Assembly (NCBI GenBank): GCA_021780815.1
Contig: JAJXYC010000002.1
Coordinates: 117,257-181,256, forward strand
DNA from: Bacteroidota bacterium
Lineage (GTDB): Bacteria > Bacteroidota > Ignavibacteria > Kapaibacteriales > UBA2268
DNA: 64,000 nt
Direction of reading: 5' to 3'
Below the pieces are notes generated by a model. The model had not been told where the DNA came from. It saw only the letters and a list, made by a program, of their open reading frames with translations, and did no database searches. Both the position numbers and the translations under genes were made by a program. Shown piece by piece: positions 1 through 39,438 of this stretch. The stretch's first letter is position 1. Each line of letters opens with the position of its first letter.

Positions 1-479
1 TCCTTTACAGAAACAATAGATTGAATTTGATTATGAGCAGAGATTTTGTTTATTTTACTTTGCTCGCTATTTGTTATTTGATTATTCATCATATAAGAAT
101 TTTGATTAGCCGTATAAACTTTGTTTAATTTGGTAAATTGATTACCAAAATGGTCAATATTCAAAAGTAAAGCAAAGAATATTAAAATAGAAGCGGCTAT
201 AGAATATTGAAAAAATACCACCTTGCGATTTTTTTTGTTATTAGAAAGATAAGCATCTTCTTGCATACGTGAAACAATTGATTTTTCTACCGAATTGAAG
301 AAATTTTCAGGATATGCGATATCGTCATTTGCTTTTTGAATTTCATAATCAATTTCAACAAATGACTGAAAATCATTTTTCAACTCAGAATCTTGATTAA
401 TCATATCACGCAACAAGTTATCTTCTTCCCGAGTAATTTCGCCATCGAGATAGCGAAAAATTAACTTATGCTGTTTCAT
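1..479 (-). CDS. anti-sigma factor-like membrane protein (C-terminus cut by window edge)
   Basis: The frame stays open from an ATG at 479 to the window edge, giving about 159 residues. The N-terminal 80 residues are acidic and helical, like the cytoplasmic part of anti-sigma proteins that follow ECF sigma genes. One hydrophobic segment (about residues 85-102) is followed by an Asn/Gln-rich stretch that would lie in the periplasm. No zinc-binding HxxxCxxC motif is visible. The start overlaps the end of the sigma gene by 14 bases, so the two are probably translationally coupled. The layout matches the second sigma/anti-sigma pair at 32841-34773. The anti-sigma role is inferred from position and architecture, not from a recognised domain. 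Confidence 0.6.
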   Translation of the reverse strand, partial: MKQHKLIFRYLDGEITREEDNLLRDMINQDSELKNDFQSFVEIDYEIQKANDDIAYPENFFNSVEKSIVSRMQEDAYLSNNKKNRKVVFFQYSIAASILIFFALLLNIDHFGNQFTKLNKVYTANQNSYMMNNQITNSEQSKINKISAHNQIQSIVSVK

Positions 480-3052: not shown

Positions 3053-3340
3053 CTATTGCGTTTTAGATTTTAATTTATTTGTAGTTACCTTTACTTTACT
3101 TTTTAAAGCATCTAATTTTTGTTTTGTTTTTGGACTATTTGCAATTTCTTTGCCTTTTTTAATAGCGGCTTTTGCTCCTTCTTTTCCTAATTGCCACCCT
3201 GCACCATAAGCAGCCGCATTTTTTACTTTGCTAACTAAACCTTGTTTCTTATGTGTTGGAAGTTTCGGTTTGCAATCCAAAGTTTGAGTTGCAATAACCA
3301 TTGCAAATAAAATCAATAATACAATAACAAACTTATTCAT
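3053..3340 (-). CDS. small secreted lysine-rich protein of unknown function
   Basis: A 95-residue protein that begins with a clear signal peptide (MNKFVIVLLILFAMVIATQT). The mature part is rich in Lys and Ala and has almost no acidic residues. A middle stretch (NAAAYGAGWQLGKEGAKAAI) has regularly spaced small residues, as in a glycine-zipper helix, and the tail is a run of Lys-rich helices. A ribosome-binding site (AGGT) sits about 8 bases before the ATG. I do not recognise a family. It stands alone between mtnA and a membrane protein, both on the same strand, with gaps of over 100 bases. Confidence 0.6.
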   Translation of the reverse strand: MNKFVIVLLILFAMVIATQTLDCKPKLPTHKKQGLVSKVKNAAAYGAGWQLGKEGAKAAIKKGKEIANSPKTKQKLDALKSKVKVTTNKLKSKTQ

Positions 3341-3473
3341 TATTTTACCTAAAAATTAATATTAAATTTACAATATTAAATTTACAATATTGAATAAACA
3401 TTAAAAATAAGAAACGAACCTAATCATTATGAATTCTAGTTGCTCCATAAAAAATATCTTATTATGGCATTAG

Positions 3474-4283
3474 TTATTTAGGTAATTTGGTATAATCAAT
3501 CTCTGAACCCAAAACACTATGTGGAACTAAATAAACAACAATAGTAACAATCGTCGCAATAATAGCCCAATACTTTCTCTCAGGATGTTTTTTCAACTGG
3601 AACACAGTAACAATCCAAGCAATAAATACTAACAAAGTTTTATTATCAGTTAAATCATGCCCGAAGGGCCAACCAGTCCAAAATGCTCCAAAAGCCAAAT
3701 ATTGCACAATTGGACCAAGAATTAAACCACCAATAATCATTAAATTCATTGTAAAAAGTGAATAAGCATAGGTTCTATTACCTTTATAGAAAGCCTCCAA
3801 TCCAGCACGTAATGAATAAACCATACCTACAAACATAAATAAAATATGTGGGTATAAAATATACGGCGGCACAACACCTTTAAATCTAATAATAACTGGT
3901 TCAGCAGTTAATGTTTTGTTGTTTCCTGTAAAATCAACTAAAGATATTTGATATATTACCTTCCCAGCAGGTGGTTGTTCTGGAATACTTGCTAAAAGAT
4001 AGTCGCCATCTCGCTTTAATTGTTTAACAGTCCAATCATCATTACTTTTAAATCTTTTATATTTAATATATGCTAATACATTTTGATTTTGCACTTTAAT
4101 CTTTATTATATCATCACCCGGTCCATCGTTGCTTCGTGGTAATTTGTATTTTACAACTTCGTTATTAAAAGTTATACTGCCCGAAACAGGGTATGTTGGA
4201 CCTGTCATCCTTTGATATACTGCAAGAACAAGCATTAGAACAAATGCTACAACCCACAATAAAATCGACCTCGATTTTTTCAT
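3474..4283 (-). CDS. membrane protein with periplasmic beta-type domain, unknown function
   Basis: A 269-residue protein. An N-terminal membrane anchor (about residues 8-25) is followed by a soluble segment of about 110 residues, rich in beta-strand patterns and probably periplasmic. Four more membrane helices follow (starting near VPPYILYPHILFMFVGMVYS). The ATG at 4283 has an AAGG ribosome-binding site. I do not recognise the family. Conserved-looking polar residues in the membrane part (H, R and E in YPHILFMF and LRAGLEAFYKG) suggest a functional core rather than a simple anchor. No neighbour points to a pathway. Confidence 0.6.
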   Translation of the reverse strand: MKKSRSILLWVVAFVLMLVLAVYQRMTGPTYPVSGSITFNNEVVKYKLPRSNDGPGDDIIKIKVQNQNVLAYIKYKRFKSNDDWTVKQLKRDGDYLLASIPEQPPAGKVIYQISLVDFTGNNKTLTAEPVIIRFKGVVPPYILYPHILFMFVGMVYSLRAGLEAFYKGNRTYAYSLFTMNLMIIGGLILGPIVQYLAFGAFWTGWPFGHDLTDNKTLLVFIAWIVTVFQLKKHPERKYWAIIATIVTIVVYLVPHSVLGSEIDYTKLPK

Positions 4284-27908: not shown

Positions 27909-27974
27909 TTAATTCGCCTTTTTCTTTAATTTTACGAATTATAAATTTAAATGTTTCAAATTAAAAAGAATTTT

Positions 27975-28865
27975 ATGAAAAAATTTGGATTTACCATACT
28001 TATTTTTCTTGCTCTTATTTTAAACCTTCAATCTTCGGAAAAAAATGTATCAAACTCTGGAGCATCACAAGCAAAAGTATCACAATATACATCTGATACA
28101 TTTGATAAAATAGTTAATATTGCAAATAAAGAACACTGGAATACACTTCCAATAGGAGAAATAGTTGCCAAAGTTGGGACACAATTTATAAATACTATGT
28201 ACTTGGGACACACTTTGGAAAAAGAACCTGAACGATGTGTATTAGACTTAGAAGGTTTGGATTGCGTTACTTTTTTTGAAAGCTCATTAGATATAGCAAG
28301 AGCGATTAAATTAAAAGAAGCAACAATTGACGAAGTAATTAAACAAATTACCTTTACTCGTTATCGGTTTGGACAACTAACTGATTACACTTCCCGTTTG
28401 CATTATACTTCCGATTGGTTTTATGATAATATGAAAAAAGGTGTTGTTGAAGATATTACCAAAATGCTTGGTGGTACTGCGATTAATTTTAATCTATATT
28501 ATATGTCTGAATATTACCAGCGATACAACCAATTAAAAAATAACCCTGATTTTGTAAAAACAATCAAATCAATTGAGCAGGATATAAATTATCGCACATA
28601 TTATTATATCCCCAGTAAGCAAATTCAAAATATTGAAAGTTTACTGCAAGATGGTGATATTGTTGGGTTAATGATTAATACTAATGGATTAGATTATTCT
28701 CACACAGGTTTAATCTGTAAAGAAAAAGATGGATTAGCACGTTTTATGCATGCTTCATTTGTAAAACATAAAGTGGTCTTGGATACTACTATTTCTGAAT
28801 ATGTATCACGAAACTCCAGTATTGTTGGTGTTACATTTGTTCGTCCATTAAAGCCTACTAAATAG
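27975..28865 (+). CDS. DUF1460 family (amidase-like NlpC/P60 fold) exported protein
   Basis: A 296-residue protein with a signal peptide and a DUF1460 domain. The catalytic Cys lies in DLEGLDCVTFFESSLDIA, and the His in YSHTGLIC. The fold is related to NlpC/P60 peptidases, and a family member is an N-acetylmuramoyl-L-alanine amidase-like enzyme that acts on muropeptides. I prefer the ATG at 27975, where a normal signal peptide begins (MKKFGFTILIFLALI). hpnE follows 7 bases after the stop, so the two are likely co-transcribed. Confidence 0.85.
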   Translation: MKKFGFTILIFLALILNLQSSEKNVSNSGASQAKVSQYTSDTFDKIVNIANKEHWNTLPIGEIVAKVGTQFINTMYLGHTLEKEPERCVLDLEGLDCVTFFESSLDIARAIKLKEATIDEVIKQITFTRYRFGQLTDYTSRLHYTSDWFYDNMKKGVVEDITKMLGGTAINFNLYYMSEYYQRYNQLKNNPDFVKTIKSIEQDINYRTYYYIPSKQIQNIESLLQDGDIVGLMINTNGLDYSHTGLICKEKDGLARFMHASFVKHKVVLDTTISEYVSRNSSIVGVTFVRPLKPTK

Positions 28866-28872
28866 TTAAATA

Positions 28873-30183
28873 ATGAAAATTGCTATAATAGGTTCAGGGA
28901 TTGCGGGAATTTCAGCGGTTGTTAATTTGGTAAATTTACCTAACGTTGAAATTACTCTTTTTGAAGCTACCCAAAAAGTTGGTGGTCGTATATTTTCATT
29001 CCAAGAACCTATAACCAAAGATTTTATTGATAATGGCAAACATATTATGGTAGGTGCTTACCAGAACTTCTTTGCATTGTTAAATCAATTAGGAACTTAC
29101 CATTTCCTTGAATTCCAAAAATACTTAAACGTTAAACTAATAAGCAAAAATAACTGCGATATCTTTAAAAGTGGTGCTTTGGGAAAATTCTCTCAATTTA
29201 TTTCATTGCTTTCAATGAAGAATTTGAGCTTGAAAGATAAAATTGCTTTATTAAATTTTATTAAAAATATTTCTCACATTAAATCAAACAACAAAACAGT
29301 TGCTGAAATTTTATTGGAAAATGGTCAATCTCAAAATATAACGACAAATTTTTGGGAACCAATAACATTAGCAACAATGAATACTAAAATTGAATATGCT
29401 TCTGCTGATATTTTTTTGAATATATTAAACAAAGTTTTCTTTTCTGATAAAAACTCACAAAAATTAGTTTTTTCTAAAATTCCTTTACTTGAATTGTTAA
29501 ATTTAAATAATATTATTTCTAAAAAAAATTTAAAAGTTTTATTATCAAAAAAAATAGAAAAAATTAGCCAAACTCAAGAAAGCAAATATATGCTTTTTAC
29601 AAAAGAAGAATACTTCGGAAATTTTGATTCAGTAATCTTTGCCATTGCTCCATTACATTTATTTTCTATATTAAAAAATTCTAAATTACAAATAGAAAAT
29701 AAAATAGAAAATCTTAAAAAAAATTTAGAAAATATAAAGTATTCTCCTATTATATCGTTGTATTTATGGTCTGGCAATGAATTTATGAAAGATGATTTTT
29801 CTGGAATGCTCGGTACTGAGTTTCACTGGATATTTAAAGAAAAATCAAGACAAAACTTTTTATACACACTTACAAAAAGCAGTGCAGAAGGCATAGTCAA
29901 TCGTTCAAAACAAGAAATAATCGATATTGCATATAAAGATTTACAAAGTATTTTCAAAGAATTTCAAGTAAATAAAATTTATTATAATAGATTAATAATT
30001 GAGAAACAAGCAACAGTGATTATTTCACCTGAAATGCAATCTATGAGGCAAGAACAAAGATTAATCAAGGGAATATATATATCAGGAGATTGGACTGCAA
30101 CAGATTTACCAGCAACAATAGAATCAGCCGCTTTTAGTGGTAAAAAAGCGGCTGATTTTCTAAAATATGATTATCAGATATAA
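28873..30183 (+). CDS. hpnE: HpnE-like FAD-dependent amine oxidase/desaturase (hydroxysqualene dehydroxylase family)
   Basis: A 436-residue flavoprotein. The dinucleotide-binding motif is IIGSGIAGISAV, with the second Gly-rich motif in KVGGRIFSF, and IDNGKHIMVGAYQNFF is the HpnE signature. The C-terminal FAD-contact region reads YISGDWTATDLPATIESAAF. HpnE converts hydroxysqualene to squalene in hopanoid synthesis, together with HpnC and HpnD. Neither partner is in the window, so a carotenoid-type desaturase cannot be excluded. It starts 7 bases after the DUF1460 gene. Its last codons contain a perfect 14-bp hairpin. Confidence 0.78.
   Translation: MKIAIIGSGIAGISAVVNLVNLPNVEITLFEATQKVGGRIFSFQEPITKDFIDNGKHIMVGAYQNFFALLNQLGTYHFLEFQKYLNVKLISKNNCDIFKSGALGKFSQFISLLSMKNLSLKDKIALLNFIKNISHIKSNNKTVAEILLENGQSQNITTNFWEPITLATMNTKIEYASADIFLNILNKVFFSDKNSQKLVFSKIPLLELLNLNNIISKKNLKVLLSKKIEKISQTQESKYMLFTKEEYFGNFDSVIFAIAPLHLFSILKNSKLQIENKIENLKKNLENIKYSPIISLYLWSGNEFMKDDFSGMLGTEFHWIFKEKSRQNFLYTLTKSSAEGIVNRSKQEIIDIAYKDLQSIFKEFQVNKIYYNRLIIEKQATVIISPEMQSMRQEQRLIKGIYISGDWTATDLPATIESAAFSGKKAADFLKYDYQI
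30122..30157. terminator. hairpin terminator embedded in the 3' end of hpnE
   Basis: AATCAGCCGCTTTT (30122-30135) and AAAAGCGGCTGATT (30144-30157) form a perfect 14-bp stem with an eight-base loop, followed by TT on the plus strand. It lies inside the hpnE reading frame, about 26 bases before the stop, between two convergent genes one base apart. It probably serves both directions. Confidence 0.7.
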
Positions 30184-30184
30184 A

Positions 30185-31315
30185 TTATCCAATACTTTTA
30201 TCGTAAAGCATATATTTTTTATAAATCTGACCTTTCATTGCTTGTTGCAGTGCGTTATTCATATCAGCGTTAATTGATAAAATCCAAGACGCTTCACCTT
30301 GTGTAATACCACGTTTACGACCACGCTCGCCAATTTCATAATAAAGAACTGCATCAGCCCCAGTTTTACGAAATTCAGGTAAAATACCAAGTGTAATTAT
30401 TCTTAGTGTTTTTATTTTCTTTGATTTTGTAAAAAGATGCCAAGCTGCACCAAGTAATGAACCGCTTTTGTTATGGATTAAGACTTCATTAATATCCGGT
30501 AAAGCTAACGCAAAACCTGCTGTTTTACCATTAACTTCAACAAGCAAAACTAAATTAGGGTCGGCAATTTGAACTAAATCATCTGCTAAAAAATTAAATT
30601 CCTCTTCGGTTGCTTTAACAAATCCCCAATTTTTTTGCCACGCACCATTGTAAAGTCCTTTAACTATTTGAACATCCTCCATCAATTTCTTTTTGTTTTT
30701 GAAATCTAAACTTCTAACAGTGATCTTGTATCTTTCACGTACAATTTTTTGCATACGAACTAATTTCTCACTCTGATAGTTATCCATTTTTAAGATATAG
30801 GCATATAAAAGCATTGCATCGGAAAAACCATAATTTTTAATTAAATCAATATAATAAGGTGGATTGTATTTCATTAAAGCAACTGGTGGAGCATCAAATC
30901 CTTCTATCAATAATCCACATTCATCATTTAAACTGGGGTCCACCGGACCACGCATTGTATCTAATCCTCGTTCAAGCAACCAATTTTTACAAGCATCAAA
31001 TAATTTATTGGCAACTTCCTGCTCATTAACACATTCAAAGAAACCAAAAAATCCAACTTTATCATTATGTGTTTTGTTGTGATTATCGTTTTTAACCGCG
31101 GCAATACGACCCACTATTTCGCCATCTTTATAAGCAAGAAATTCTTGTAATTCTGAGTGCATATAAAATGGATTTTTCGCTCGGTCTAAAAGCTTTTTCC
31201 TATCGGCAATTATTGGCGGAACAAAATTTTTATCGCCTTTGTAAAATAACCATTGCGATTTAATGAATTTCATTAAATCTTGCTTTGTTTCTACTTTCTT
31301 TATTTCGATACTCAT
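30185..31315 (-). CDS. GNAT-like protein of unknown substrate
   Basis: A 376-residue protein of a family widespread in Bacteroidota and usually annotated as a hypothetical or GNAT-type acetyltransferase. The N-terminal part has FVPPIIADRKKLLDRAKNPF and FLAYKDGEIVGRIAAV, an acetyltransferase-like strand pair. The middle has RGPVDPSLNDECGLLIEGFD, and the C-terminal part has LGILPEFRKTGADAVLYYEI, resembling an acetyl-CoA loop. The substrate is unknown. It is convergent with hpnE with one base between stops. Confidence 0.65.
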   Translation of the reverse strand: MSIEIKKVETKQDLMKFIKSQWLFYKGDKNFVPPIIADRKKLLDRAKNPFYMHSELQEFLAYKDGEIVGRIAAVKNDNHNKTHNDKVGFFGFFECVNEQEVANKLFDACKNWLLERGLDTMRGPVDPSLNDECGLLIEGFDAPPVALMKYNPPYYIDLIKNYGFSDAMLLYAYILKMDNYQSEKLVRMQKIVRERYKITVRSLDFKNKKKLMEDVQIVKGLYNGAWQKNWGFVKATEEEFNFLADDLVQIADPNLVLLVEVNGKTAGFALALPDINEVLIHNKSGSLLGAAWHLFTKSKKIKTLRIITLGILPEFRKTGADAVLYYEIGERGRKRGITQGEASWILSINADMNNALQQAMKGQIYKKYMLYDKSIG

Positions 31316-31617
31316 AATATTAATACTTTAAATTGAACAAGAAAATTTTTATTGAAATCTTGCAAAGAAATCTATAAAATATGATAAAACAAAGTTACGA
31401 AAAAAAACTTTCTATGTACAGATTTATGAATTATTTTCAATATCTTTTTTATAAAAACGTTGAAAATGAGTTTTAAATTAATAATTAATGAAAATATTTA
31501 ATTTTATGCTGTAAAAAATCATTTTATTTGATAAATATATAAAGGAGTAATTTGAAGTATTAATTACGAGTTAGAGTGAATAATTAAATTAAATTAATAT
31601 AATCGCATTTTTTTTTA

Positions 31618-31625
31618 TAATTTTG
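31618..31625 (+). promoter_or_regulatory. possible -7 promoter element (TAATTTTG) for the propeller-sigma operon
   Basis: TAATTTTG lies 59 bases before the start at 31684, inside a 368-base gene-free stretch (31316-31683) that is otherwise plain AT-rich DNA. There is no good -33 box. Confidence 0.3.
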
Positions 31626-31683
31626 TGTTACAAAAACAAGTTTAAATTGTTATTATATTATATGAATTTGCTAATATTAAACA

Positions 31684-32832
31684 ATGAATAAAAAAAGTAA
31701 ACTAAATATTAAACAAAAAACCAAAGAACAAATTATTAAGCCAATATTTTTGAGTTTAATATTTTTAGTTTTACAGTTTTATTTAATTAGCTGTAATTTA
31801 TGCCCTAATAATCCATCTAATGGAACAATCGGAGGTTCCGACGCAATTTATTTATCATTTATTCCATTAAATTCGAACCTGTCAATGATTTATCGGATGA
31901 ATTACTCTTCGTTTGCTTTTGAACAGCTAGTACAAAATGGCTCTTTGTATTCTACACCAGCCAAAAATGGGAATTTTGCTTTTATAAGAATTGATTCAAC
32001 TGACAATAAGGCAGTTTTAATGATTGGAAATCTTGCTAATTCGTCCATAAATACTATTGAAAAGGAAAATAAAGATTTTTCAATTTATTACCCACAAATA
32101 TCATCAAATGGCGATAAAATTGCTTTTCTTGGTGGAAATAATCAAATATTAATCTGGGTAAATGATTTAACTAATAATTCCTCTTATATGGATAAAATTT
32201 CAAATAACTCTTTTGATAATGCTATTCCACATTTTTCACCTGATGGGACAAAATTAGTTTTTTTAGAAAATCAAGGCGATTCAACTATTAATTTGAAAAT
32301 CATTGAAAGCGATAAACCTGATAATGTGCTTTTACAAAAGCAATTTAATAATGTCGGATTAATAGATGGAATTGAAAACTATATTTCTTTTGATGCAACA
32401 GGGAGTAAGATTTTTTTTGTAACAGCAAACGATACGAATTATTTTTTTAATTTAATGAGTATAGACGGAACTTCTTTGAGGAAAATTCCTATCAACAAAA
32501 AGAACTTTGGCATAAAAATAGCACAGTTATCACCATTAGGCAATTTTGTAGGTATTACTTCCTCTGATGGTAATTTCTGGACAATAAACATTGAAAGCGA
32601 TGACCTTTATTTTAATAAAATAACTAATGTAAGCCCTTGTGAGCAGTTTATATATTTTGATTGGTCTGCTTCGGGCGACAAAGTTATCGCCCAAAAATTT
32701 AACTGTGAAGATAAAAATAACGTAAGTTCGGATATTTATATTATTGAATTAACTAATCAAGACAAGTTATTAAAAAATAAAAATATGTTTGTAATTTCTA
32801 ATAATGTTCAACGTGCATTTTGGGGTAACTAA
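31684..32832 (+). CDS. TolB-like beta-propeller lipoprotein
   Basis: A 382-residue protein with a long basic N-terminus, a hydrophobic segment and a lipobox-like LISCN. The rest is built of repeated blades of WD40-like/TolB type (YYPQISSNGDKIAFLGGNNQ, PHFSPDGTKLVFLENQGD, FDWSASGDKVIAQ). Such propellers usually bind other proteins at the envelope. It is the first gene of a tight operon with an ECF sigma factor (8 bases downstream), an anti-sigma protein and another lipoprotein. A sensory role in that circuit is an inference from position. Confidence 0.7.
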   Translation: MNKKSKLNIKQKTKEQIIKPIFLSLIFLVLQFYLISCNLCPNNPSNGTIGGSDAIYLSFIPLNSNLSMIYRMNYSSFAFEQLVQNGSLYSTPAKNGNFAFIRIDSTDNKAVLMIGNLANSSINTIEKENKDFSIYYPQISSNGDKIAFLGGNNQILIWVNDLTNNSSYMDKISNNSFDNAIPHFSPDGTKLVFLENQGDSTINLKIIESDKPDNVLLQKQFNNVGLIDGIENYISFDATGSKIFFVTANDTNYFFNLMSIDGTSLRKIPINKKNFGIKIAQLSPLGNFVGITSSDGNFWTINIESDDLYFNKITNVSPCEQFIYFDWSASGDKVIAQKFNCEDKNNVSSDIYIIELTNQDKLLKNKNMFVISNNVQRAFWGN

Positions 32833-32840
32833 AATAAATT

Positions 32841-33431
32841 ATGTTCGAAAATTGGGGTAAATATAGCGATACTGAACTTTTTACTATGATACATGATAAC
32901 CATAGCAATAAGGATAAAGCTTTTGCCGAAATTTATCACCGTTATTCAGATAAAATTTTTAGTTATTGTTTAAAAATATTAGGCAATTATGACGATGCAA
33001 AAGATATATTTCAAGAAACGTTTATTAAATTTTACAATAAAATACAAGAAACAAAATTAAGTGGAAGCTTAAGCGGTTTGCTTTTTACATTTGCGAGAAA
33101 TGAATCTCTGAATTACTCTAAGAAAAAAAATAGGTTCGTAGAATTAAAAGAAAAGTATTTACCAAAATACTTTGATAACCTTGAATCAGGAGAAATGATT
33201 GAAATGCTTGCTCGTGCTTTGGATTTGCTGCCTTTTATTCAAAAAGAAGCTTTTGTTTTAAGGCACTATCAAGGTCTAAGCTATGAAGAAATTTCCAAAA
33301 TATGCTTTGTAGACCAAGCAACTGTTAGAAATAGAGTAAAACGAGCTATCCAAAGCTTACAAAATATATTAAAACCAATTTTTGAAGAACCACAAATTAA
33401 TACGAAAAAAAAGGTAAGAAAAGATGAATAG
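32841..33431 (+). CDS. ECF-type RNA polymerase sigma factor
   Basis: A 196-residue sigma-70 family protein. Region 2 is DKIFSYCLKILGNYDDAKDI with LLFTFARNESLNYSKKK. Region 4 is LLPFIQKEAFVLRHYQGLSY followed by EEISKICFVDQATVRNRVKR. It differs clearly from the other ECF factor at 466-1029, with a shorter linker and a basic C-terminal tail. It starts 8 bases after the propeller gene and overlaps the anti-sigma-like gene by 8 bases, so coupled translation is likely. Confidence 0.92.
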   Translation: MFENWGKYSDTELFTMIHDNHSNKDKAFAEIYHRYSDKIFSYCLKILGNYDDAKDIFQETFIKFYNKIQETKLSGSLSGLLFTFARNESLNYSKKKNRFVELKEKYLPKYFDNLESGEMIEMLARALDLLPFIQKEAFVLRHYQGLSYEEISKICFVDQATVRNRVKRAIQSLQNILKPIFEEPQINTKKKVRKDE

Positions 33432-34773
33432 AGAAGATTTATTATTTGACTATTTTGAAAATGGATTAGACCCTTATGAGGAAGATATTTTATTCCAACA
33501 ATTAAATATCGATGAATCTTTACGAAAGCAATTTTATCAACAGATGAAAATACGTTTGTTAACTCGTGAAGATACTATGCATATTAAAGCACCTTTTGAA
33601 GCAACTCAAAATATTTTTAATACAATTGGTATCAGTAAAAAAGTTTTTCAAACACAAAAATTTCAAAGAAACTTCTTGACTTTTATCCAATCTAAAAAAG
33701 TCCGTATATCTTCGGCTTTAATTGTAATCGCTTTATTGATTGCTTTGCCTGCTTTTTATCTTATTGAGAATTATGCCGCAAATAAATTTAATTCTTCAAA
33801 TGCTAACATTGAAACAAGTGCAAACTCTTTATCTAAAAATGAACAAAATTATCCTACTGTTTCTTCCAATGAAGATAATACAAGTGAAAATAATGCAAGC
33901 CATTCTACTTTAAATCAGAGTAACTCTTTCTTGGCTCAAACTGCAAATACAGCAATATTGTTGAATTCTTTAGAAGATAAACTTAATTCAATTTATTCAA
34001 AGAAATTAAACAAAATAAATTCTGTTTATACAAATAAATTGAAACAATTGCAAAACTTGTTATCTAATAATCAAAATAATTTAGCCACTAACTTAAATAA
34101 TTCTAATAATGATTTATTGAATTTATCAAATAATACCGATAGAGAAATTCAATCTACCGCTAATTTACCATTTAACCAAAGAAGTAATAATATCTTAATG
34201 AATAATAAACAAAACAATTATTTTAATTATCGAGAACCAGTTGCAATAGATTTATTTTCTTTAATTAGTGATTTATTACCAAAATCATATTTATTGGAAT
34301 TGAATTTAACAGGGATTAATTCAAATTATGCTTATCCTAATGTTGCATTGAATAACTCTTCCCCAATTCAATATACTTACAATATCACGGCTTACTATGC
34401 TATCAATGAAAACCATAAATTAGGTGTTTCATACGGAAAAGAGCAATTCCCTCAGCAATTCAATAGAAATATTGATGGGAAAAATTACCAACAAATCCAA
34501 AATCCATACTTAAACTACTATGGTGTAGATTATAAGTACATACCAACCGAAATATTTTCTCAATCTTACGTATTACCTTATATTAATTTGTTAGGAGGTG
34601 CCACAACTGTTGGACCTCTTGCAAAATTACAATTAGGAGGTGAAATTAGTATTTTTAAAAGATTAGCACTAACTGTCGGTATTGAAAATTCATTGCTGTT
34701 TTATAATGTGGACAATATTATTTATTCTACAAATAAAGTTAATTTTGTATATGGAATTAACTTGAAATTCTGA
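33424..34773 (+). CDS. anti-sigma-like protein with Asn-rich linker and barrel-like C-terminal domain
   Basis: A 449-residue protein. Residues 1-90 are an acidic, helical cytoplasmic part that resembles the N-terminus of the protein at 1-479 (FENGLDPYEEDILFQQLNID). A membrane helix lies at residues 95-115. About 150 residues rich in Asn, Ser and Gln follow as a periplasmic linker. The last 170 residues show alternating beta-strand patterns (YNITAYYAINENHKLGVSYG and LAKLQLGGEISIFKRLALTV) and end in aromatic Phe, as outer-membrane barrels do. No anti-sigma domain is certain. The role is inferred from overlap with the sigma gene. Confidence 0.65.
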   Translation: MNREDLLFDYFENGLDPYEEDILFQQLNIDESLRKQFYQQMKIRLLTREDTMHIKAPFEATQNIFNTIGISKKVFQTQKFQRNFLTFIQSKKVRISSALIVIALLIALPAFYLIENYAANKFNSSNANIETSANSLSKNEQNYPTVSSNEDNTSENNASHSTLNQSNSFLAQTANTAILLNSLEDKLNSIYSKKLNKINSVYTNKLKQLQNLLSNNQNNLATNLNNSNNDLLNLSNNTDREIQSTANLPFNQRSNNILMNNKQNNYFNYREPVAIDLFSLISDLLPKSYLLELNLTGINSNYAYPNVALNNSSPIQYTYNITAYYAINENHKLGVSYGKEQFPQQFNRNIDGKNYQQIQNPYLNYYGVDYKYIPTEIFSQSYVLPYINLLGGATTVGPLAKLQLGGEISIFKRLALTVGIENSLLFYNVDNIIYSTNKVNFVYGINLKF

Positions 34774-35444
34774 TGTATAAAAATATTGCTTTGCTTTTTT
34801 TATTTCTTTTGATTTCTTGTGAGTGTCCCCCACAAATTGATACAAGTAAAGAAATTATTCCTAATGAACATTCTTACTGTATTTTTTTCAACATTAATTC
34901 CGATTATAAAGTATTTTCAGTAAATTCAAATAAAATTGAAATCGTAAATTCTGTAAATTTTGCAAACACTTCTAATAAAAATTATTACAAATTCCCTGAT
35001 AATTACGCAAATTTACTACTCTTCAGTAATAATATTCCAATTTTCAATACTTTAATTTATACACAAAAATCTCATTACTACACATTTTTCTTTTATAAAT
35101 TTGAAGAACATTCTTCTTATTTATTTGTTGAAGATGCTTTCCCTGATTCTTTGCAAAATTCATATATTAGGTTCTTAAATTTTAACTCAAACCAATCTGT
35201 AAATTTTGAAATCGCAAGTAGTTTGCCCCAACCGATAGATGTGTTTGTCAATATGAACGATTATACTAAATTAATACCAATGCTTGAAGGAAATATTGCT
35301 ATTTCAATAATCAATCCTGCAAGTCAAAATTTAATAGCTAAATATGACAATATTAATTTAAAGCAAAATTCAATAACCAACATAGTATATACGGGAGATT
35401 CTACAAATTACAATGTATATATTCTTAAATCAAACAAACAATAA
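34773..35444 (+). CDS. lipoprotein, possibly DUF4397-like
   Basis: A 223-residue protein with a short lipoprotein signal (LLISCECP). The second half, starting SYIRFLNFNSNQSVNFEIAS and continuing with PIDVFVNMNDYTKLIP, weakly resembles the beta-sandwich DUF4397 family. Its start codon shares one base with the stop of the anti-sigma-like gene (TGATG), which indicates strict co-translation. It completes the four-gene operon from 31684. Function unknown. Confidence 0.6.
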   Translation: MYKNIALLFLFLLISCECPPQIDTSKEIIPNEHSYCIFFNINSDYKVFSVNSNKIEIVNSVNFANTSNKNYYKFPDNYANLLLFSNNIPIFNTLIYTQKSHYYTFFFYKFEEHSSYLFVEDAFPDSLQNSYIRFLNFNSNQSVNFEIASSLPQPIDVFVNMNDYTKLIPMLEGNIAISIINPASQNLIAKYDNINLKQNSITNIVYTGDSTNYNVYILKSNKQ

Positions 35445-35591
35445 TGTAACTTTTTGAATAGTTAAAATGTCCTTATAAGAAAACATGAATCCAATAATTA
35501 ATAAATTATTCAAAATTTATTAATTATTGACAATTCACACTTAATTTTGTAAATTAAAATAATTTTTGTAAATTAAAAAAAAGGTAAGAAG

Positions 35592-37100
35592 ATGAAAAGA
35601 ATATTTGGTATATTACTCTTTTTGTTATTAGGTGCAGTAGCCTTTCAAAGTTTTCAATGTAGTTCAAGAGAATTAACAACAGCTAAGGTAGCTTTTTCAC
35701 ATCAAGATTACGATAAAGCAATTGATTTTGCACAACAGGAAATAACGAAGAATCCAGAAAATGGTGAAGCGTATATGTTGATTGCAGATTCATATATGAT
35801 GAAAGGAAATACAAAACTTGCCGCTGAATATGCATTAAAAGCAGAAAAAATTATTGGCGACCAAAATCCACAACTTTCTCAAAGACCAAAACTATTAATT
35901 AATAAAATATGGGTTGAATCTTATAATATGGGAGTTGATAACTTTAATAAATATTTTAGTACAAAAAATAATAAATTTCTGGATTCAGCAATACGTTATT
36001 TTGAAATTGGGAAAAGCGTTCGCCCATCAATGCTCGATTTTTACGCACTTTCCGGACAAGCTTATGAAACACGTGGCGATTCAATTGCCGCTTTAGTTGA
36101 ATATAAATCTTATCTCGAGAAAGCACAAAAAGATTTAGATATTTTTAAAAACAATAACTTTTATATCGGTATTCCAAGAATAGATGTTATTAAAAAATTA
36201 GGGAAACCTGAACTTACTAATGGATTTTCTGGTACACAAGGTGATTCTTTGATTACAGATTTGTTTAAAGTTGATGGTAAGGAATTATACGTATTTTACA
36301 AAGATAATAAAAAGGATTTAAATTTCGAATTGCAAGGATTAAGATATGACCCACCTGCAAACTGGTTGCCTAATGAACAATCTCAATGGGTTAATTTTAA
36401 CACAGCCCCAATTGCCGCTCTATCACAAATGACTTATGCAAAACATAAATATGAAGATGCTTTAACTTATTTGAAATTACTTGGAACTCTTGAACCTTCA
36501 AATACTAACGCAAATGCCTTTTTAGTACAAGTTTATCAAGATATGGGGCAAAATGACAAAGCTTATTCTTATATTCAAGAATTAATTAAATCTAACCCTA
36601 AAAATAAATTTTATTTGGTACAACTTGGCGACTTATATCAATTAGATAAAAAATATGAACCTGCAATCGAAGCCTATAAAAAAGCTTTGGATATTGACCC
36701 TACATTTGAACCTGCCCTAAGAAATATTGCCTCCGCTTATAAAAATAAAGCCAGTGTTAAACAAAATGAAATTAAATTAAAATTAGATGCTGATAAAAAT
36801 TATAAACCTAATCCTGATGAATATTTCCCAGACCTTAAAGAATCTGCAAAATATTTCGAAGAAGTTTCAAAAACTAATAAATATAAAAATGATTATAAAG
36901 TTTATTCTGAACTTGCAAATATTTACTACGTGCTTAATGATAAAGATAAATTAACTGATGTTGTTTCAAAATTAGAAACTCTTCGAGACCAAATACCCAC
37001 TGAAGATTTGCAAAATTATTATGTGGAAATGGTAAAAGTTTATAGTCAGTATGTGAAAAATTCAGAAAAATTAAAAGAATATCAAAGCAAAATTAAATAA
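35592..37100 (+). CDS. TPR-repeat lipoprotein
   Basis: A 502-residue protein with a signal peptide whose lipobox-like end is FQC (Cys at about residue 23). Several tetratricopeptide repeats follow: VAFSHQDYDKAIDFAQQEIT, GEAYMLIADSYMMKGNTKLA near the start, and AYKKALDIDPTFEPALRNIA later. A beta-rich insert occupies residues about 190-260. TPR lipoproteins act as scaffolds for envelope complexes. The partner is unknown. A ribosome-binding site AAGG precedes the ATG. The DUF3467 gene follows 28 bases downstream. Confidence 0.8.
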   Translation: MKRIFGILLFLLLGAVAFQSFQCSSRELTTAKVAFSHQDYDKAIDFAQQEITKNPENGEAYMLIADSYMMKGNTKLAAEYALKAEKIIGDQNPQLSQRPKLLINKIWVESYNMGVDNFNKYFSTKNNKFLDSAIRYFEIGKSVRPSMLDFYALSGQAYETRGDSIAALVEYKSYLEKAQKDLDIFKNNNFYIGIPRIDVIKKLGKPELTNGFSGTQGDSLITDLFKVDGKELYVFYKDNKKDLNFELQGLRYDPPANWLPNEQSQWVNFNTAPIAALSQMTYAKHKYEDALTYLKLLGTLEPSNTNANAFLVQVYQDMGQNDKAYSYIQELIKSNPKNKFYLVQLGDLYQLDKKYEPAIEAYKKALDIDPTFEPALRNIASAYKNKASVKQNEIKLKLDADKNYKPNPDEYFPDLKESAKYFEEVSKTNKYKNDYKVYSELANIYYVLNDKDKLTDVVSKLETLRDQIPTEDLQNYYVEMVKVYSQYVKNSEKLKEYQSKIK

Positions 37101-37128
37101 TTTTTTTATTAAATAATTGGAGAAAAAT

Positions 37129-37467
37129 ATGGGTTTAGAACAAAATAAGCCACAAGGACAGCCTCAACAAATCAATTTAGAATTAGGAGAAAAAGAAGCG
37201 GAAGGCATTTATTCTAATTTAGCAATAATTTCTCATTCAAACGCTGAATTTGTAATCGATTTTACAAGATTATTGCCTGGTGTGCCAAAAGCAAAGGTGT
37301 TTTCAAGAATTATTATGTCTCCAATTCATGCTAAATTATTTTTAAATGCTTTGAATGAAAACATCAGAAAATTTGAAAGCCAAAATGGTGAAATACGAGT
37401 CGAACCAGGACAAGGTCCAATGGGGAATTTCCCTGGATTTCCTCCAAGTGGAACTATTACAAATTGA
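37129..37467 (+). CDS. DUF3467 family protein
   Basis: A 112-residue cytoplasmic protein of the DUF3467 family, with the signature YSNLAIISHSNAEFVIDFTR and ARxIMSPxHAKxF-like VFSRIIMSPIHAKLFLNAL. The C-terminus is Gly/Pro-rich. The family is common in bacteria and archaea, but no function is established. I use the ATG at 37129, which has GGAG about 8 bases upstream, rather than 37117. Confidence 0.85.
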   Translation: MGLEQNKPQGQPQQINLELGEKEAEGIYSNLAIISHSNAEFVIDFTRLLPGVPKAKVFSRIIMSPIHAKLFLNALNENIRKFESQNGEIRVEPGQGPMGNFPGFPPSGTITN

Positions 37468-37495
37468 AATTAGTAGACACTTAAAAATTTAGCAC

Positions 37496-37542
37496 AAAAC
37501 AAAAGCCTTCACCTTCGCAGAGATGGAGGTTTTTTGTTAATC
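37496..37542 (+). terminator. probable terminator after the DUF3467 gene
   Basis: AACAAAAGCCTTCACC and the downstream GATGGAGGTTTTTTGTT can form an imperfect stem ending in six T residues. The pairing has several mismatches. Confidence 0.45.
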
Positions 37543-37600
37543 AGTTTATAAAAAATGAGGTGCCGAAAGAAAATATTGAGAATTAAAGAATATATAGTAA

Positions 37601-37762
37601 TTAAAATTTAAAGAAATTTAAGCTATAACCTATTGAAATACCAGCCCAAATTTGGAATTTTCTTAATTCATTATCAACATCAGTCCCAACTTGCAACATT
37701 ACAGGCCAAGGATATTTATTTAAATGCAAGGATATGAAGGTAGAATAATTTATTTCTACATC
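37601..37762 (-). pseudogene. C-terminal fragment of an outer-membrane protein
   Basis: On the minus strand an open stretch of 53 codons ends in the stop at 37601 and reads like the last strands of an outer-membrane barrel, including FQIWAGISIGYSLNFFKF with terminal Phe. It has no start codon of its own and follows in frame directly after the stop of the YciI gene. It is either a relic of a deleted gene or chance coding. Confidence 0.35.
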
Positions 37763-38059
37763 TTATTTAATAAATGATAAACCTACTTTACAAGGAAAAA
37801 TATCAATTTTTTCCCAAACTTTGCCGACCACATAAGGCTCTTTGTTAAGCCACTCGTCTAAATCTTTTCTTGACGGAAAGTCAACAATATATACTGAACC
37901 ATTCATATTACCTTCAATACCAAGTAAAGCAACCCCATATAAAGCCTTACCTTCTATAATCATTTTATCACTTAGAGCAATATGCTCTTCACGTGCTTTC
38001 ATACGTCTATTTAAAGCATCCCTATCTTCATAGTCTTTGGCTATAATTATGTAGTGCAT
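37763..38059 (-). CDS. YciI family protein
   Basis: A 98-residue YCII-type protein, a ferredoxin-like fold with a proposed His/Asp active site. Key stretches are MHYIIIAKDYEDRDALNRRM, then EEHIALSDKMIIEGKALYGV, and VYIVDFPSRKDLDEWLNKEP. The length is normal and the family-typical C-terminus is complete. The function of most YciI proteins is unknown. The next gene upstream on the same strand (DUF2461) starts separately, 137 bases away. Confidence 0.85.
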   Translation of the reverse strand: MHYIIIAKDYEDRDALNRRMKAREEHIALSDKMIIEGKALYGVALLGIEGNMNGSVYIVDFPSRKDLDEWLNKEPYVVGKVWEKIDIFPCKVGLSFIK

Positions 38060-38196
38060 AATATTTTAAATTAGTAATTAAAAGGTTTACATTATATATT
38101 AATTTTTTCTTGCTCTTATTATCAAATTTTATTCCCTATTGCTGTATGTTCAGACTTTATTTTAAATCAATTTTTTTGCTAATGCAAAAGTATTTT

Positions 38197-38904
38197 TTAT
38201 TGATTTTTACCTCTATATATATATTCCATAAATGGTTGCAAAATTATACCTTTTTCAAGGATTATATCAGCAATACTCTCGGATAGGGCTACCTTTTTGT
38301 CTAATGGACACAATGGAGTAAAGTCTTTTTGTTTTAAAATTTCAATTGCTGGATGATTTAGGTCAAAACCTTTGGGTGCTTTTTTCAATTTTTCACCTTC
38401 ATACATCTGCGGAAAATGCTTTTTGAAATTTGAATCATTAATAATTTGTTCAAGTTCTTCCCAATTATCCGAAATATAAGTTCTTACATTAAAAAGTGCT
38501 TGTGCATCTGGCATATGAAGCCCACCTGCAATAAAACATTCACTTTCTTCAATATGAAAATATAGACCCATTGAAATATCGTTATATTTCATAAAATTTG
38601 GCTTAAAAAGAAAATATATGCCTAAATTTGTTTTATATGGTGATTTATCAGAACTAAAACGGATATCTCGGTTTATTCTAAAAAGAGATTTCTTTTCATC
38701 AGCATAATATGGTAAATTTAAAGCAGAAAATCTATCTCTCATTTCACTAACCAAAATCTTGGAAATCACCTTGATTTTTTCGTATCTATATTTGTTTTCA
38801 GCAAACCATTCTTTATTGTTGTTTGCTTTCAATTCTTTATAAAAATTAAAGGTTGCCTCTTCAAAACCACAAAATTCTTGCAAAATCTTGTTATTTTTAT
38901 TCAT
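38197..38904 (-). CDS. DUF2461 (TIGR02453) family protein
   Basis: A protein of about 235 residues of the DUF2461 family. Signatures are LKANNNKEWFAENKYRYEKI, FRINRDIRFSSDKSPYKTNL and GLYFHIEESECFIAGGLHMP. The family is widespread in Bacteroidota and fungi, without known function. The longest frame starts with a TTG at 38928. I prefer the ATG at 38904, eight codons in. Neither has a strong ribosome-binding site. Confidence 0.85.
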   Translation of the reverse strand: MNKNNKILQEFCGFEEATFNFYKELKANNNKEWFAENKYRYEKIKVISKILVSEMRDRFSALNLPYYADEKKSLFRINRDIRFSSDKSPYKTNLGIYFLFKPNFMKYNDISMGLYFHIEESECFIAGGLHMPDAQALFNVRTYISDNWEELEQIINDSNFKKHFPQMYEGEKLKKAPKGFDLNHPAIEILKQKDFTPLCPLDKKVALSESIADIILEKGIILQPFMEYIYRGKNQ

Positions 38905-39081
38905 ATTAGCCAATTTATTAAAAATCAAAAAAACGGCAGTAAATATTTAATATTTTATTTGCTCCATATAAAATAAGCATATAAAAAAAAACAGATAAAT
39001 TACAACTTTCTATGCATAAGTGCTGAACTTATAAAATACTAAAAGTCAAATTGAAAATATACGCTTTGTTAGCAATTTTGT

Positions 39082-39438
39082 TTATTGTTTTGCTTTAAAA
39101 ACAACCGAAGTTATTAATTCAATCAAGAAACCATATATTGCGCCCAAAACAATAGTTGATACCATCAACATCGTATGTGTAAATTCTGAACTTTCTGGAC
39201 CTAACATAGCACCAAATCCAGAAGGCACACTAAATATTAATCCCATTATTATTCCATGCAATGACCAATGTTTTAAAGTAAAACGACTAATTCCGATTGC
39301 AACTCCGATTAATGTTCGCCCTGAAATAATACTAATTGCTAAAATTGTTGATATTTCATTATGTCCACTTGCAGAAAGTCCGTAGCAAACAAAACCAAAA
39401 ACAATTCCTAATAAAGTACTAATAATCAATCTTTTCAT
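39082..39438 (-). CDS. small membrane protein, unknown function
   Basis: A 118-residue protein with four membrane helices and many Gly/Ser residues (FGFVCYGLSASGHNEISTIL and SGFGAMLGPESSEFTHTMLM). A ribosome-binding site-like AAGGGG lies in the leader. It sits at the right side of the DUF2461 gene and immediately before the end of the type I restriction operon, on the same strand. I do not recognise a named family. Confidence 0.55.
   Translation of the reverse strand: MKRLIISTLLGIVFGFVCYGLSASGHNEISTILAISIISGRTLIGVAIGISRFTLKHWSLHGIIMGLIFSVPSGFGAMLGPESSEFTHTMLMVSTIVLGAIYGFLIELITSVVFKAKQ

Follow-up and report, generated by a model that had tools for sequence, protein, structure and literature searches.

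A four-gene ECF sigma cassette of Kapaibacteriales encodes an anti-sigma factor with a predicted outer-membrane-type barrel

Introduction

How is an event at the outer membrane reported to a sigma factor in the cytoplasm, and could a single protein carry the message? This question is raised by a four-gene cassette at positions 31,684 to 35,444 of a 64,000-nucleotide stretch of DNA (the window; contig JAJXYC010000002.1, positions 117,257 to 181,256, of GenBank assembly GCA_021780815.1, a Bacteroidota bacterium of the order Kapaibacteriales). The cassette encodes, in this order, a propeller lipoprotein, an extracytoplasmic function (ECF) sigma factor, an anti-sigma factor and a second lipoprotein. 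The genome holding the window measures 2.63 Mb, and the named relatives are Candidatus Kapaibacterium, placed in the Bacteroidota by NCBI taxonomy, and Kapabacteria/Ignavibacteria metagenome bins. Almost no regulatory literature was found on these bacteria.

The first-pass annotation of this DNA had read the anti-sigma factor as a single protein in which a cytoplasmic sigma-binding region is linked to an inner-membrane helix, a long Asn-rich linker and a C-terminal beta domain, and had known of no described system of exactly this form. The latter view has to be given up, since Dma1/Dma2 and Reo share the architecture (PMC13088901, PMC9308784, PMC13114119). Dma1 and Dma2 of Bacteroides thetaiotaomicron combine an anti-sigma domain, a helix, a disordered tether and a beta-barrel, are encoded beside ECF21 sigma factors and occur solely among Bacteroidota (PMC13088901). 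An anti-sigma factor reaching an outer-membrane barrel was reported from Phocaeicola in 2022 (PMC9308784) and is named Reo in PMC13114119. In these Bacteroides analogues, loss of the anti-sigma factor activates the sigma factor, the likely trigger being envelope stress (PMC13088901, PMC9308784).

We propose that the cassette is probably an autoregulated trans-envelope signalling unit, working like Dma and Reo of Bacteroides. The two-membrane architecture is not new; judged by sequence comparison, the window family is a distinct, order-wide variant of it.

Results

Sequence comparison or prediction supports the order of the domains, the pairing with a sigma factor, the barrel fold, the promoter and the regulon described in the following. 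In all 31 aligned members of the anti-sigma family, an N-terminal domain is followed by a helix, a variable linker and a conserved C-terminal domain. The N-terminal profile of the family matched RsiW (5wuq) over residues 5-68 with an E-value of 4.6e-5, and weak matches to zf-HC2 and RseA_N were obtained in 8/31 and 2/31 relatives, respectively. The zinc-binding His-Cys-Cys motif, which is typical of the zinc-binding anti-sigma (ZAS) subset only, was not found in the alignment of 31 members, and a zinc-binding anti-sigma factor was ruled out because the zinc ligands were not seen there. The hydrophobic stretch of the helix is present in all 59 distinct relatives (mean hydropathy at least 1.58), and their linkers comprise 115-198 residues with a median of 148. 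Even the shortest linker would measure ~39 nm when fully extended, and this floor in length fits what a periplasm-crossing tether would need. The Asn content of the linker falls with GC content (r = -0.81) and thus tracks genomic AT, while the length never drops below 115 residues. The long linker of the first-pass annotation is retained as a family trait, and its Asn-richness is compositional.

The AlphaFold2 model of the window protein, calculated from 8 input sequences, reached a mean pLDDT (predicted local distance difference test) of 54 overall and of ~80 over most of residues 321-449. Foldseek related the C-terminal domain to NspA (5e-7), and structural alignment of residues 285-449 (VIA-align/Foldseek) gave OprF at Z 15.9 (2.3 A over 116 residues), NspA and OmpA at 14.7 and OmpW at ~14; soluble barrels, namely avidin-like proteins and PsbO, appeared in the same fold list at Z ~10. 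No Pfam family covering the C-terminal domain was found in the 31 members scanned, and the fold evidence depends on the model because the barrel profile has no sequence match in the PDB. Of the 20 most conserved barrel positions, 13 lie on loops L2-L4, where 6 would be expected; the corresponding permutation p of 2.5e-4 is optimistic, with the loop boundaries drawn after the motif had been seen. These loops are topologically outside, a placement that follows from a linker located in the periplasm. The window protein ends in Phe, as had been noted earlier, and the C-terminal residue is aromatic (F or Y) in about two thirds of the relatives by approximate count. We predict an 8-stranded barrel of outer-membrane type. 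None of the 31 aligned homologues has lost the C-terminal domain; its retention was judged from the whole-protein set only, because part of the 59 relatives had been collected with the barrel profile. Model and alignment thus contain the helix and the barrel, whose absence from the model or from homologues would have spoken against the earlier reading.

Whole-protein searches returned relatives in 57/60 genomes of the genus, family and order, with up to 23 anti-sigma copies per genome. When 296 genomes from the whole phylum were sampled with a profile of the C-terminal domain, 26 matched, 25 of them in the window's order and one elsewhere in the class; by these searches, the family hardly extends beyond the window's order (the Kapabacteria lineage). 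An ECF sigma gene lies directly upstream of the anti-sigma gene in 59/59 distinct relatives, a lipoprotein-like gene directly follows in 45/57, and the propeller gene is present in 22/22 orthologous loci examined. The arrangement is for this reason not a matter of chance, and the co-occurrence of four families that had been suggested for checking is borne out. The reading frames likewise agree with the spacing first described, a gap of 8 bases followed by overlaps of 8 bases and 1 base, and the four identities hold by Pfam, TolB-like and RsiW matches and by a CEC lipobox in the fourth gene.

The window's genome encodes seven ECF sigma factors, five of which are followed by a protein of two-membrane architecture: the one discussed here, two on contig C7, one at C16:470.7k (L086; L, G and C numbers are our handles for loci, genomes and contigs) and one across the left edge of the window (L121). 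Of the other two, one has a 234-residue partner and one has no partner. The cassette at the window edge (window 1-479 and 466-1038, - strand; L121:1866-3236 and 3223-3795) comprises an ECF sigma factor of 190 residues and then a helix/linker/barrel-like protein of 456 residues, which the barrel profile missed and which was assigned by its helix, linker and C-terminal pattern.

Upstream of the propeller gene, the 22 orthologous loci read yielded a family motif, tGAGAC-N13-ATGTGTC. When spacings of 9-17 bases were compared, only 13 gave matches with at most two mismatches in many loci (13/22). Genome-wide, the motif occurs in 6-49 copies in 10 genomes of the family versus 0-3 copies of the reversed control; a version with a 12-base spacer, our first pattern, which was one base short and was kept as a control, gave background counts, and 27 genomes outside the family were at background as well. 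Since the motif had been spotted by eye in some of the genomes later counted, the promoter claim rests on these controls. In the window's genome, the promoter has diverged to GTTAC-N13-AATTGTTA, with one match in the window. Allowing at most one mismatch, two other matches occur in the 2.6 Mb genome, before the gene of a 562-residue protein and before a PF02397 sugar transferase gene. Counterparts of both genes bear the family motif in relatives, and the same two target classes lie under it in G008. The site before the 562-residue gene has the same -35 element as the cassette of the genome concerned, namely GTTAC in G000, GGTAC in G003 and GTTAT in G001 and G002. Such joint divergence at cassette and target would be the trace of a single sigma factor that has changed. 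We therefore predict that the motif, new here, is an ECF-type promoter preceding the cassette.

The genes under the motif include the cassette itself, sugar-phosphate transferases of PF02397 and PF00953, predicted to be initiating enzymes, the 562-residue protein and two sigma genes. Many others encode secreted proteins, among which there are BNR/Sortilin-type propellers, PorZ-like matches and type IX sorting domains. The latter domain (Por_Secre_tail) was present in at least 12 of 57 downstream proteins, many of which were read to 2 kb only, and by a crude hydropathy test 51/64 downstream proteins appeared exported versus 32/86 baseline reading frames. The 562-residue protein (..LGGWGLVGSAI..; L241:2248-3933, G000 C16 ~459.7-461.4 kb) is present in 22/24 relatives, has no Pfam match and is apparently a core target of the cassette sigma factor. 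In two relatives, a second conserved sigma gene lies under a TGAGAC promoter (L153:847-1410, L170:706-1311), hinting at a sigma cascade, and a similar sigma factor is encoded in the window's own genome (L114:1420-2088).

The propeller protein carries a PD40 repeat (2.8e-4) and its profile matched solved TolB at ~1e-10; TolB itself was ruled out by a score of 30 bits versus an equivalog cut-off of 343. For the fourth gene, DUF4397 (PF14344) was matched in 15 of 25 downstream relatives; the G003 orthologue matched with E 2.7e-10, while the window's 223-residue protein itself gave no match; its model is a tandem beta-sandwich with a fold match to the PepT2 ectodomain. Other paralogous cassettes have immunoglobulin (Ig)-like lipoproteins in place of DUF4397. 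The 25 downstream proteins matched 15 Pfam families, and NigD was not among them; the rest of the genome was not scanned for it. Both lipoproteins have a second Cys close to the lipidated one, three residues past it in the propeller protein (window 31792-31803) and two residues past it in the fourth-gene product (window 34818-34826), each invariant in 8 relatives, so that an intermolecular disulphide between these cysteines is possible.

For comparison with Dma-type systems, 15 regions around C-terminal or long OMP_b-brl_2 matches in other Bacteroidota were taken. Five of them combine an ECF sigma factor, a helix and a C-terminal barrel; the remaining regions, either unrelated or with sigma and anti-sigma factor encoded by separate genes, were excluded. 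Loci of this type were thus recovered in five Bacteroidia genome regions and in close relatives. Several different families of Bacteroidota outside the window's order have Dma-type loci, in which the ECF sigma gene overlaps that of a helix-linker-barrel protein (L079, L080, L081, L082, L083). Profile comparison (hhalign) of the window family with these fetched Bacteroidia examples, Dma1 itself not being among them, indicated no relation (probability 1.8 for the N-terminal domain, 4-11 for the barrel). The Dma-type N-termini gave no match to RsiW, and the barrel families of the Bacteroidia examples, PF13568 and PF13505, were not among the Pfam matches of the 31 members. In an unrooted tree of limited sampling, the sigma factors of the window family group apart from those beside the Bacteroidia Dma-type genes. 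The window family can thus be considered a distinct variant, perhaps independently assembled, because no relation to Dma/Reo could be detected for its N-terminal domain, its barrel or its sigma clade. Its four-gene composition and predicted regulon set it apart as well. It would work like Dma, whether or not it belongs there by descent.

Table 1. Predicted features of the cassette, from promoter to last gene, in window coordinates
Feature	Position	Strand	Basis
Predicted ECF promoter of the cassette, GTTAC-AAAAACAAGTTTA-AATTGTTA	31627..31652	+	Orthologous cassettes agree in position and 13-base spacing
Beta-propeller lipoprotein, lipobox ISCNLC	31684..32832	+	PD40 2.8e-4, TolB-like, alignment of relatives
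ECF sigma factor, 196 residues	32841..33431	+	Sigma70_r2 4.7e-11, Sigma70_r4_2 1.2e-13, tree
Anti-sigma factor, 449 residues	33424..34773	+	Alignment, model, profile match
Sigma-binding (class I anti-sigma-like) domain, ~residues 5-68, without zinc ligands	33436..33627	+	RsiW 5wuq profile match
Inner-membrane helix, ~residues 92-122	33697..33789	+	Model helix, hydrophobic stretch
Disordered Asn-rich periplasmic linker, ~residues 123-288	33790..34287	+	Mostly pLDDT <50
C-terminal domain, predicted 8-stranded outer-membrane beta-barrel, residues 289-449	34288..34770	+	Model pLDDT ~80 over most, Foldseek
Lipoprotein, 223 residues, DUF4397-related, tandem beta-sandwich model	34773..35444	+	Pfam matches of relatives, model

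Downstream of the cassette, the window encodes a lipoprotein-like tetratricopeptide repeat (TPR) protein (35592-37100), and two relatives within the genus (L005, L006) share this arrangement. An Omp85/POTRA protein (BamA/TamA-like) is encoded after the cassette, in the same direction, in four relatives (L037:7313-9637, L038:7419-9653, L039:7412-9652, L040:7396-9648).

Discussion

We propose a model in which the anti-sigma factor would keep the ECF sigma factor at the inner membrane, on its cytoplasmic side, the disordered linker would cross the periplasm and the C-terminal barrel would sit in the outer membrane, where the two lipoproteins of the cassette are likely to be its partners. Outer-membrane insertion, the signal, the lipoprotein partnership and proteolytic release are steps that we infer. 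A trigger at the outer membrane, be it a surface ligand, the state of a lipoprotein or failed barrel assembly, would be passed along the tether, with regulated proteolysis as the most likely means, and the sigma factor would be freed. It would then transcribe its own cassette from the GAGAC-N13-ATGTGTC-type promoter and also drive a surface regulon of an initiating sugar-phosphate transferase and the 562-residue protein and, in related genomes, of many secreted or type IX-secreted propeller proteins. Several observations weigh against this model. The barrel was modelled on only 8 sequences with the low overall mean pLDDT given above, and the lipoproteins are linked to signalling by synteny only, 12/57 relatives having no lipoprotein-like next gene. 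Moreover, G004, a member of the same genus, has no convincing target promoter upstream of the 562-residue gene, and another sigma factor, also controlling the cassette, could read the promoter.

The RsiW-like N-terminus and the presence of avidin-like proteins and PsbO in the fold list would also suit a classical class I anti-sigma factor of the RsiW/RseA type, whose C-terminal domain is a soluble, lipocalin-like periplasmic barrel sensor that never enters the outer membrane. We regard this as improbable, since the top fold matches are transmembrane outer-membrane barrels at clearly higher Z, about two thirds of the relatives end in F or Y by the approximate count given above, and a linker that is always at least 115 residues long would be needless for a soluble sensor. 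It is likewise rather unlikely that TGAGAC-N13-ATGTGTC is the promoter of another regulator with the cassette as just one target. Genomes of the family do have several ECF sigma factors, and two of the targets in relatives are themselves sigma genes; however, the motif precedes orthologous cassettes throughout the family, is limited to this cassette-bearing family, is built like an ECF promoter and keeps pace with the divergence of the cassette's own promoter.

The question of origin is separate from that of mechanism. The domain order, the order of sigma and anti-sigma genes and the common phylum by NCBI would all be expected if the anti-sigma factor were a highly diverged true Dma member, sharing one origin with the Bacteroidia Dma/Reo proteins. 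The profile comparison, the failure of Dma-type N-termini to match RsiW and the separate tree groups of the sigma factors argue against such descent, which appears unlikely, though less so than the two alternatives above. Returning to the tethered two-membrane unit that we favour, we can extend it tentatively: Kapaibacteria may have independently evolved a two-membrane anti-sigma factor as the main ECF mode of some genomes, with one subfamily, in which the propeller and DUF4397 lipoproteins would serve as outer-membrane input, coordinating type IX surface proteins with a surface polysaccharide pathway. We hold this extension possible rather than probable.

Work on the one-protein wire from the outer membrane to a sigma factor has so far dealt with gut Bacteroides. 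That a second, sequence-unrelated family occurs in almost all genomes of an order suggests either more than one origin of the design or a very old one. The conserved promoter, together with the changes that cassette and target promoters have in common, offers a regulon that is ready to be tested.

Among the known systems, the Dma proteins, for which the first paper appeared in PNAS in 2024, come with Das sigma factors. As in the window cassette, the domain order is the same and the gene lies beside an ECF sigma gene in a small operon (PMC13088901). The outputs of Dma1/Dma2 are NigD1, vesiculation and polysaccharide utilization loci, whereas surface proteins and sugar transferases are predicted for the window family; a propeller lipoprotein gene, present here, is not mentioned for the dma2 operon (PMC13088901). 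A NigD lipoprotein as target has been shown for Dma1 and not for Dma2. EcfO-Reo resembles the window system in an anti-sigma factor predicted to extend from cytoplasm to surface, in targets that include surface glycan and surface lipoproteins and in the proposed response to outer-membrane stress (PMC9308784, PMC13114119). It differs in having NigD where DUF4397 lipoproteins are found here, and the two are unrelated in sequence as tested on Bacteroidia representatives. RsiW and other class I anti-sigma factors share the N-terminal domain and the single membrane helix with the window protein, which lacks the zinc ligands and adds the long tether and the outer-membrane-type barrel. In FecI-FecR-FecA, an outer-membrane event frees an ECF sigma factor, as proposed here, with three proteins instead of one. 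FecR-type signalling itself was ruled out for the cassette, as the FecR domain is found in 0/31 members and no TonB-dependent receptor was seen on inspection of the genes at 27951-39438. PorXY-SigP of Porphyromonas also ties an ECF sigma factor to type IX secretion, there through two-component input and genes of the secretion machinery, here, as predicted, through a tethered anti-sigma factor and genes of the cargo (PMC4800418).

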